Positions 10,955 to 15,953 of a stretch of DNA of 21,174 bases are shown one piece after another (the first letter of the stretch is position 1; every line of letters starts with the position of its first letter). Below the pieces are notes generated by a model, which was not told the DNA's origin, did no database searches, and saw only the letters and a list, made by a program, of their open reading frames with translations. The stretch is from a virus, in IMG/VR virus record IMGVR_UViG_3300046005_000273, positions 1 through 21,174 of that record; one strand, 5' to 3'. Position numbers and translations under genes: made by a program.

Positions 10955-11971
10955 ATGACTACATTATTCAAAAAAGCTGCTGTGTTTACTGACTTACATG
11001 TGGGGCTGAAATCTAATAGTCAGCTACATAACGAAGATTGTTTAAATTTTGTTAAGTGGTTTATAGACGAAGCAAAGAAAGAAAATTGCGATACTGTTAT
11101 TATGACCGGTGACTGGCACAACAACAGGGCTGCTATCAATATTGTTAGCTTAAATTACTCTTTACGATGTTTAGAACTATTAAATGAAAATTTTAGTAAA
11201 ATCTTTATTATACCTGGTAATCACGATTTATATTATCGTGACAAGCGCGATATAAATTCTGTTGTATGGGCGAAGCATTTACCAAATATTACTATTATTG
11301 ACGATTTTCTTTCCGACGGCGACGTTATATTTGCTCCTTGGTTATTAGGGGATGAACATAAAAAACTCAAAAAAATGTCAAGCAAATATTTATTTGGACA
11401 TTTTGAATTACCACACTTCTATATGAATGCAAAAGTACTAATGCCAGAACACGGTGAATTTAAACAAGATGATCTTGGCTCGTTCGATACTGTGTTTAGC
11501 GGGCACTTCCACAAACGTCAAACTAATAAGAACATTACCTATATCGGTAATGCTTTCCCGCACAACTACGCAGACGCCGGTGATGATGATAGGGGTATGA
11601 TGATACTTACTTGGGGCGAGGATCCTGTGTTTAGAGCATGGCCTAATCAACCTAAATATCGTGTTTACGGATTGAGTGATGTGTTGCGTACACCAGAAAC
11701 ACTATTATTACCGCAGATGCACTGTCGTGTTAACATTGACATTGATATTACCTACGAAGAAGCTACGTTTATTAAAGAAACGTTCGTTGGTACATACAAC
11801 CTGCGTGAGCTTACTTTAATTCCTGTTAAGAATATGGACATTGGTCAAGATATTCAATTAGGTAATATTGCGTTTGAAAGTATTGATACCATTGTTACTA
11901 ACCAATTAACAAATATTAACAGTGATCATTACGATCCTAATCTTTTACTTGATATCTATAGGCACTTATAA
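10955..11971 (+). CDS. gp47: Recombination nuclease gp47 (SbcD/Mre11-like)
   Basis: Metal-dependent nuclease subunit that, with gp46, resects DNA ends for recombination-dependent replication and repair. At 338 residues it matches T4 gp47 (339). All Mre11 phosphoesterase motifs are visible: D13-x-H15 (FTDLHVG), GDWH at 52-55, GNHD at 88-91, the GHFE block, and SGHFH, together giving the two-metal site. It is followed without a gap by gp46, as in T4, where the two subunits form a complex. A weak sigma70-like pair may lie upstream (TTGCTT at 10920-10925 and TACACT at 10943-10948, 17 bases apart). No clear Shine-Dalgarno is present. Confidence 0.97.
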   Translation: MTTLFKKAAVFTDLHVGLKSNSQLHNEDCLNFVKWFIDEAKKENCDTVIMTGDWHNNRAAINIVSLNYSLRCLELLNENFSKIFIIPGNHDLYYRDKRDINSVVWAKHLPNITIIDDFLSDGDVIFAPWLLGDEHKKLKKMSSKYLFGHFELPHFYMNAKVLMPEHGEFKQDDLGSFDTVFSGHFHKRQTNKNITYIGNAFPHNYADAGDDDRGMMILTWGEDPVFRAWPNQPKYRVYGLSDVLRTPETLLLPQMHCRVNIDIDITYEEATFIKETFVGTYNLRELTLIPVKNMDIGQDIQLGNIAFESIDTIVTNQLTNINSDHYDPNLLLDIYRHL

Positions 11972-14773: not shown

Positions 14774-15208
14774 ATGACTTACGAATATCCTTGGACGTAC
14801 AATGGTGTAATATTTGACTCTGAGGATATTCAAACTTATTATGGCTTTATATATAGAATAACTAACACCGTAAATGGCCACGATTACATTGGCCGCAAAT
14901 ACTTCATTACCATCAAAAAGAGACCACCTCTAAAAGGCAAGAAAAACAAAAGACACCAAGTCATAGAAACAGACTGGAAAGATTATTGGGGCTCATCACC
15001 GCGTTTAATGGCTGACATTAACGCACTAGGCAAAGAGAAATTTACTCGTGAGATTATACACCTGTGTAGCTCAAGAGGCGAAACTAATTACTTGGAAGCC
15101 TATTACCAATTTAAGGAAGATGTCTTGTTGCGTGAAAACAACTACAACGGCATTATTCAATTAAAACTTGGTAAAAATTCCGTAAAAGATTTAAAAATTA
15201 CAAAATAG
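14774..15208 (+). CDS. Short GIY-YIG endonuclease-like protein
   Basis: 144 residues of a type common in T4-like phages. GFIY at 24-27 and YIGRKYF at 38-44 form the GIY-YIG signature including the catalytic Arg (R41). A Glu in NYLEAYYQF (E108) and an Asn in NYNGII sit where the family has its metal-binding Glu and final Asn, so the active site looks intact. The basic stretch KKRPPLKGKKNKR probably contacts nucleic acid. No separate DNA-recognition domain is visible, unlike the longer GIY-YIG gene upstream, so it may be a resident phage enzyme and not a mobile one. It is the last protein gene before the structured RNA region. Confidence 0.78.
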   Translation: MTYEYPWTYNGVIFDSEDIQTYYGFIYRITNTVNGHDYIGRKYFITIKKRPPLKGKKNKRHQVIETDWKDYWGSSPRLMADINALGKEKFTREIIHLCSSRGETNYLEAYYQFKEDVLLRENNYNGIIQLKLGKNSVKDLKITK

Positions 15209-15725
15209 CCAATATCGCAGTTAATACTGTGTCATGAGGTGATCCTGCTCGCGTAATGGCCGCAGGTGGAACGTGTAGATTAGACTACACACATGACGGC
15301 ACGGCATGATCAATTAGGTGTAAAAACCAAAAGATTCGGGCACTGAAACAACTCAACCCGAGAGCAAAAACATAGTTGGCTAACTACGGCTATGTGAGCT
15401 ACCGCCAGATAAATCTAGAGTAGGGAGTACAGGCTGACCGCTTCCGTGTTTATGATAACAATCTCTTTTAGTTAGTGTGATGCCGTACTCGGATGATGCG
15501 ACAGTTTGCAATTTGCCTCGGATAGGTAAATTGTGACTGATATCTGGATGATAACGTTTAAGAGCATATAATTAAATCAACTTAATTAAACGTAATAAAG
15601 AATAGAAGAAAAGGCTTTAGAGCGATAGCGATAAAGCAGATGTCGTTAGACATCTTAAACTAGTAGTCAATAAAAAAGACTATAAACATATAGCCTTTAA
15701 TATGTACTTTAAGGATAATAATGAA
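15209..15725 (+). ncRNA. Candidate large structured non-coding RNA, class unknown
   Basis: 517 bases without a protein gene. By hand count 15241-15540 is 46% G+C (138 of 300), above the flanks; 15541-15600 is 23%. Visible helices: GTCATG 15231-15236 with CATGAC 15292-15297, closing a three-way junction that contains CCTGC 15244-15248/GCAGG 15262-15266 and GTGTAG 15273-15278/CTACAC 15285-15290; TTCGGG 15335-15340/CCCGAG 15357-15362; ACATAG 15370-15375/CTATGT 15390-15395; GAGTACaGGC 15425-15434/GCCGTACTC 15482-15490; CAATTTGCCT 15509-15518/AGGTAAATTG 15524-15533 with outer CAGT/ACTG; ACGTTTAA 15554-15561/TTAAACGT 15586-15593; GCTTTA 15614-15619/TAAAGC 15632-15637 with a GA/GA internal loop; AGATGTC 15638-15644/GACATCT 15649-15655; GTAGTC 15663-15668/GACTAT 15678-15683; ACATAT 15686-15691/ATATGT 15700-15705. 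The G-U pairs in three helices would be A-C on the other strand, so plus-strand transcription is favoured. Ends are approximate; no promoter was found, so readthrough is assumed. Confidence 0.7.
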
Positions 15726-15953
15726 TTAAAAGAACGGCATTTTTGTTTTCTGTGTTGTTTCTAAGTTCTCTTTAATCAGCTTACCAATTAATTCTTTGTC
15801 TATTCGAGTTAACATCATTGCATCTTCGTAACTAATACTACCACGCATGTACCAACAAATACGTATTGCGTCATCTTTATAGGCTTTTGACTGCTTTTCC
15901 ATATTGTCTAACAAGTCGACGATTTCCTCGTTAGACAGCGTCAAAAGCCTCAT
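15726..15953 (-). CDS. Small protein overlapping gp26, likely tail assembly partner
   Basis: 75 residues, of a kind seen beside gp26 in T4-like phages; no enzymatic motif. It contains SNEEIVDLLDNMEKQ, then CWYMRGSISYEDAMML and KLIKENLETTQKTKMPFF, mostly helical. The ATG overlaps the gp26 TGA (ATGA, 4 bases), which allows re-initiation. In addition, a U UUU UUC heptamer two codons before the gp26 stop puts this frame at -1 to gp26, so a fused gp26 product of 358 residues is possible. The pair lies next to the tape-measure gene, the usual place of frameshifted tail assembly chaperones. A chaperone role is inferred from position and this arrangement only. Confidence 0.75.
   Translation of the reverse strand: MRLLTLSNEEIVDLLDNMEKQSKAYKDDAIRICWYMRGSISYEDAMMLTRIDKELIGKLIKENLETTQKTKMPFF
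15905..15937 (-). other. Stem-loop downstream of the slippery site
   Basis: TGTCTAAC (15905-15912) is an exact inverted repeat of GTTAGACA (15930-15937): an 8-pair stem with a 17-base loop containing GTCGAC. It begins 18 bases after the slippery heptamer in the mRNA, farther than the 5-9 bases usual for a frameshift stimulator. Confidence 0.45.

Follow-up and report, generated by a model that had tools for sequence, protein, structure and literature searches.

The locus and its gene neighbours

The window analysed here, meaning the whole stretch of 21,174 bases, corresponds to positions 1-21,174 of the IMG/VR virus record IMGVR_UViG_3300046005_000273 and, judging from the gene content around the RNA described below (gp46/47-like genes, a T4_baseplate gp26-like gene, PF12322, and further structural genes), derives from a T4-like phage. 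On the plus strand, a SegE-type GIY-YIG nuclease gene (14774..15208; PF19835, E=3e-37) lies directly upstream of the RNA, whose 5' end overlaps the stop codon of this gene. The syntenic downstream neighbour of the RNA is a 75-aa gene on the minus strand (15726..15953), convergent with it; the latter gene is taken as context, and the SegE gene is probably context as well, outside the RNA system. The conserved RNA stops near 15656 and is followed by a terminator-like, poorly conserved tail (15657-15725). Within this tail, between the convergent genes, there is an inverted repeat containing both an A-run and a T-run (15672-15700), also terminator-like, which other elements replace in relatives.

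The nuclease adjoining the RNA varies across relatives, being either a SegE GIY-YIG enzyme or an unrelated PDDEXK_15 protein, and in cultured relatives the slot is occupied by annotated Holliday-junction resolvases; on these grounds, the nuclease position may be read as a resolvase slot.

Secondary structure and covariation

As the comparison of homologues indicates, the window encodes a conserved, structured RNA of approximately 450 nt on the plus strand (about 15207-15656). A preliminary description of this DNA had proposed an RNA several hundred bases long, encoded by the phage, with covariation as the chosen test, and this has been borne out, the covariation being overwhelming. Its claims of a raised G+C content, the lack of a fitting reading frame and G-U pairs pointing to the plus strand were likewise confirmed. 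The MFE z-score was -5.25 for the plus strand and -4.13 for the minus strand, with 0/100 shuffles as good, G+C reached 46.0% over 15241-15540 against 37.7% for the whole window, and no plus-strand ORF of at least 60 aa was found within the RNA stretch. The plus strand is supported because the G-U pairs 15377/15388 and 15425/15443 are invariant, each being present in 40/40 sequences. All of this evidence is sequence, drawn mostly from metagenomic fragments.

The RNA, conserved in more than 100 viral contigs, is predicted to comprise a 5' three-way-junction domain, a 3' core and two 3' hairpins, all on the plus strand. In the 5' domain (15208..15300; model R2), 99.0% of the cells were paired, with a covariation of 0.575 compared with 0.186 after shuffling. 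Its helices are the closing P0 (15208-15210/15298-15300), P1 (15217-15230), P2 (15231-15236/15292-15297), P2a (15244-15266) and P2b (15273-15290), the last three representing the three-way junction already noticed at 15231-15297; 98-99% of their cells are paired, and 15/17 pairs show both-side changes. The stretch that follows (15317..15361) holds a weak P3 (15317-15328) and P4 (15336-15361), where Watson-Crick covariation was observed at 15336/15361, 15337/15360, 15338/15359 and 15344/15355.

The P5 hairpin (15370..15395), with both-side changes in 9/9 pairs of the broad set, offers in its loop the 5' strand of a pseudoknot, PK1 (CUAACUA, 15380..15386), the 3' strand of which (UAGUUAG, 15469..15475) covaries with that loop, located about 85 nt upstream. 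Both-side changes affect 7/7 pairs of PK1, as seen in the strand combinations CUAAUUA/UAAUUAG, CUGACUA/UAGUCAG, GCAAUUA/UAAUUGC, CAGACCA/UGGUCUG (L098) and AUCGCAU/AUGCGAU (L072). P6 (15417..15466, strands 15417-15420/15463-15466) encloses P7 (15423-15445), with the invariant GGCUGACC, and P8 (15447-15460); this element is 94-100% paired and shows compensatory changes. Downstream, the P9 hairpin (15485..15501) bears the first copy of a twin loop (15486-15497, UACUCGGAUGAU), the P10 hairpin (15506..15536) is 94-98% paired with covariation, and the second copy of the twin loop, UAUCUGGAUGAU, lies at 15541..15552. The RNA ends with P12 (15614..15637), a hairpin that has tandem G-A pairs, is capped by a GNNA-type loop and whose pair 15616/15635 switches between A-U and U-A, and with the terminal hairpin P13 (15638..15655, AGAUGUC/GACAUCU), whose pairs are kept in nearly all 76 homologues.

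Regarding the elements proposed in the preliminary description, its hairpin at 15509-15533 is P10 and its helix with a GA/GA loop at 15614-15637 is P12. The 9-pair helix at 15425-15490, on the other hand, found no support as main structure, since its outer pairs are invariant and thus uninformative, one of its pairs forms in only 12/40 sequences, and its bases are occupied by P7 (15426/15442, with 10 double changes) and P9. The loop-to-downstream pseudoknot, the twin loops and the kinship with Polynucleobacter-1 (RF01718) were absent from it.

For the 3' core, 96.1% of the cells in 40 sequences held standard pairs (86.6% when shuffled) and the covariation was 0.311 against 0.135, a value attained in 0/500 shuffles. 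With the pseudoknot included, 60 model-fitted sequences, bacterial ones among them, gave 0.551 against 0.200 shuffled, and sliding the partners abolished the signal (0.07-0.12); this alignment leans to the model, but the pseudoknot lies outside that model and still changed on both sides in all of its pairs. Shuffle tests being inflated by related sequences, weight is also given to the slides, to how many pair types occur and to the independent loci. Covariation is decisive for the predicted 5' three-way junction and pseudoknotted 3' core. Mutual information also connected positions 15414 and 15477 to P10 pairs, in what may be base-triple-like contacts.

Distribution among phages

The central 24-mer of the RNA was found exactly in 24 viral contigs, all aligning over up to ~460 nt with 73-87% identity, and looser patterns led to RNA homologues in more than 100 IMG/VR contigs. 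An RNA-independent search started from the gp26-like protein encoded nearby, which has 350 relatives in IMG/VR; 80 of their loci were examined with R1, a covariance model of the 3' core built from window-type RNAs. R1 matched 75 of the 80 loci, that is, 75/77 contigs long enough for the RNA, always on the opposite strand and about 0.3-1.4 kb past gp26. Three of the misses (L325, L385, L396) are contigs ending soon after gp26; in the other two, the long contigs L377 and L382, neither R1 nor RF01718 gave a match, and these count against the overall interpretation put forward here, though they may represent natural losses. Judging from these matches, nearly every phage of this large T4-like clade carries the RNA at the same locus. 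Since it is nearly never lost in phages, an important role is probable.

Blastn searches of cultured phages with four family members, and of plasmids with two, returned no homologue, and a single-sequence query of viral sequences gave nothing new. An 18-mer genome scan produced mostly chance GC-rich matches, of which only Ensifer L214 was kept by R1 (30 bits, E 5e-4, E-values from short calibrations being rough). The new loci recovered with the pattern TAGGTGTAAAAACCAAA were also mostly due to chance, except L140. Separately, a core match of 40.7 bits was observed at L119:1170-1362, overlapping the 3' end of an ORF beside a DNA methylase-like gene, in a GC-rich contig with no T4-like neighbours.

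Relation to Polynucleobacter-1 and bacterial copies

The preliminary description had named GOLLD and ROOL as possible distant relatives and had listed group I introns, RNase P and tmRNA for a search as well. No support was obtained for kinship with any of them: the GOLLD and ROOL models of Rfam matched neither the window nor any RNA locus searched, and no group I intron, RNase P or tmRNA was detected in the window by Rfam or ARAGORN. GOLLD and ROOL are likewise large, ornate, non-coding phage RNAs with pseudoknots, a comparison which refers only to how they may work, and they differ in that the window RNA has no Rfam match to them and no tRNA genes were found in the window (ARAGORN). The cmscan search of the window against Rfam gave chance matches only, with none to RF01718 either at the gathering threshold or at E<=5.

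Nevertheless, a relation with RF01718 emerged from the relatives. This family, Polynucleobacter-1, appeared in 2010 among candidate motifs, assigned to Burkholderiales and fresh water (Weinberg et al., PMC2864571). Its Rfam model spans 141 nt only, and neither twin loops, nor a pseudoknot, nor a phage location was found for it in the literature searched. Just 5' of the core, RF01718 scores 90 bits in L072/L117 and 39 bits in L064/L066/L076. It also matches 18/20 diverged loci of the gp26 clade (79-117 bits), immediately 5' of the shared core; conversely, R1 matches just 3' of RF01718 in L064 (88 bits), L371 (67), L347 (64), L072 (59), L279 (34) and L280 (31). The gene order SegE, RNA, convergent 75-aa gene and gp26-like gene is common to the window and to the RF01718-bearing phage relatives, where checked. 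Because these matches sit directly 5' of the core at a shared locus, RF01718 is, on positional grounds, the 5' third of the window-type RNA in another branch. The window RNA is, by locus and core, an ortholog of the RF01718-bearing RNA, while remaining below the RF01718 threshold by its own sequence. Polynucleobacter-1 shares with it the 3' core and the twin loops, which also come after RF01718 in the Polynucleobacter islands, and, in diverged relatives, the phage locus. Between the 5' domains the models gave no match: R2 matched no RF01718-type member, the window 5' domain is unmatched by RF01718, and the two show a loose likeness by eye. By these model searches, the window would carry a different 5' domain on a shared 3' core. 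In the predicted fold, the alignments show the 5' domain to be either exchangeable or strongly divergent and the 3' core, with its pseudoknot, to be conserved.

Among bacteria, RF01718 was present in 4/399 genomes of Burkholderiales, 3 of them scoring above the cut-off, and in 13/121 genomes of one genus, presumably Polynucleobacter, 12 of them above it. These copies occur in a recurrent island (L267-L280) made up of a divergent DUF6641 gene, the RNA, optional cargo, a small tyrosine recombinase, two unknown genes, an AAA ATPase and often a large integrase. R1 finds the core in 8/14 islands (18-34 bits) and the pseudoknot is retained, for example as GCACUUCGG/CCGAAGUGC in L280. The bacterial copies have no adjacent nuclease and no same-strand gene upstream. 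In addition, a diverged copy was noticed in Ensifer sp. IC4062 (L281:14282-14475, a 30-bit R1 match), where a SIR2-like gene, recognised by eye, ends ~1.3 kb upstream of the RNA; SIR2-like genes are a frequent anti-phage type.

In the window and in most phage relatives, the stop codon of the nuclease gene is where the RNA begins, as would be expected of a 3' UTR element of the nuclease mRNA controlling its decay or translation. However, homing genes of 0.7-2.2 kb intervene in several contigs with the RNA intact, the nuclease can be swapped for an unrelated fold (PDDEXK_15), and the bacterial copies follow no same-strand gene, all of which makes this explanation improbable. The first two of these facts, together with the bacterial copies having no nuclease beside them, weaken the earlier idea of a nuclease and RNA cassette. 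Since homing-endonuclease genes split the two and the Polynucleobacter copy is divergent from DUF6641, the RNA is better taken as a gene apart from the nuclease; the comparison of loci shows it to be a separate, putative phage RNA gene of ~450 nt, orthologous to RNAs having Polynucleobacter-1 as their 5' third. A little-noticed 141-nt Rfam candidate is in this way extended to a ~450-nt RNA of a large aquatic phage clade and of bacterial integrative elements. Extra genes, several of them homing-endonuclease-like, were observed between the nuclease stop and the RNA start in L005, L006, L013, L021, L026 and L036.

Identity covariation of the twin loops

Mutual information disclosed four column pairs carrying the same base at an offset of 55: 15486/15541, 15491/15546, 15495/15550 and 15497/15552. 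They belong to a variable code, which reads N-ACUC-RGAURAW in copy 1, within the P9 loop, and N-AUCU-RGAURAW in copy 2, 55 nt downstream. The columns covary to identity, not to complementarity (70/76 and 45/46 homologues), and identical codes were found at 100/~106 phage loci, with more than a dozen different codes. On a tree built without the loop regions, the code positions switch 12-22 times and 94-100% of the switches are shared, whereas random columns share a mean of 30% (95th percentile 62%); the twin loops resemble Watson-Crick partners instead. Block exchange was rejected as the cause of this identity, given that the intervening P10 columns share mostly 0-50% of their switches with the code. 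In the independent gp26-derived set, the variable letters were equal in both copies in 45/46 sequences (8.6 expected; a maximum of 17 in 5,000 shuffles), although the N position was equal in only 25/46. The alignments show two copies of a variable sequence in the 3' core, held identical by selection.

The codes of the Polynucleobacter-type islands are more varied (AGCGAAA, AGAGAAA, GGAGAAA, AACAAAA, AUCAAAA) and mostly the same in both copies; moreover, two RNA copies within one genome bear different codes. No convincing reverse-complement site for the twin loops was found near the RNA or in the Polynucleobacter islands, no complementary partner was enriched in five contigs of 111-189 kb, possibly incomplete, and no residues covarying with the code were detected in six neighbouring proteins. 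A SegE residue had seemed linked to the code, a link which was absent in the larger set.

The twin identity could in principle belong to the DNA, the repeat being a recombination site, such as the overlap sequences of tyrosine recombinases, and the RNA signal secondary. Recombination partners must share an identical overlap, and the Polynucleobacter copies do lie in islands with tyrosine recombinases. Nevertheless, the full-length covariation with conserved G-U pairs, the lack of any recombinase beside the RNA in phage carriers and the separation of the copies by 55-72 nt, with a conserved hairpin (P10) between them, make such a site highly improbable.

Function of the RNA

The RNA is, very probably, a trans-acting folded RNA. 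As for its twin loops, identity-coupled RNA specificity is, to our knowledge, otherwise familiar only from reverse-transcriptase templates. In an A-B-A' template, a reverse transcriptase would copy the 55-nt unit, the cDNA end would re-anneal at the identical copy and repeats would be added, as in DRT10 or telomerase, which predicts identity covariation between two short segments. This A-B-A' rule has been described for DRT10, where two segments, A and A', are likewise kept identical (PMC12632851). In the present RNA, however, the copies occupy separate loops on either side of the stable P10 hairpin, which takes up the would-be template, and an RVT_1 reverse transcriptase was found in 0/16 carriers (13 phage records, possibly incomplete, and 3 Polynucleobacter-type genomes) with positive controls, leaving the template explanation very unlikely.

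Our preferred, though tentative, reading is that the RNA would work in trans as a folded scaffold whose two loops jointly form one recognition module, displayed by the 3' core. Two options may be contemplated. In one, a single coevolving partner, carried by the phage or island that has the RNA, would be bound by both copies; in the other, the two copies would touch one another homotypically, inside one RNA molecule or across different ones. With similar reservation, loop identity might represent a recognition code read in one of these two ways. A fixed host factor is disfavoured as the sole reader, because the codes differ within one genome and between close relatives. A particular form of homotypic contact would be self-assembly of the RNA alone into a homo-oligomer, as in GOLLD or ROOL, with copy 1 of each molecule facing copy 2 of its neighbour as a self-recognition code, and the differences in code among related phages and between the two copies of one genome agree with it. 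It would, however, be unusual for C-C and G-G homopairs to span several positions, and the contacts described for GOLLD and ROOL are kissing loops and A-minor interactions; this form is considered unlikely, even with the precedent of ornate phage RNAs forming RNA-only multimers in which an unusual A-A helix occurs (PMC12286853). The explanation as a whole, comprising the RNA gene, its kinship with RF01718, the twin loops and a scaffold acting in trans, is judged likely.

The identity-coupled loops offer a sharp means of probing function, and they would teach something new to covariation analysis, normally restricted to complementarity. Furthermore, they hint at an unusual mode of RNA recognition, and an RNA common to phages and islands hints at phage-island conflict.

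Other candidate RNAs were encountered in phages. In the cultured phages Phosso and Cassandra, the equivalent slot holds a largely non-coding stretch of ~0.9 kb (L321:8300-9240 and L318:7980-8900, both minus strand), folding at z -4.65 and -2.5, respectively. R1 revealed no convincing homology in these two slots, even with filters off, and they could contain a diverged or analogous large RNA. Finally, the phage contig L077 contains, at 11068-11144, a match to the freshwater-2 RNA of Rfam, with 58 bits.
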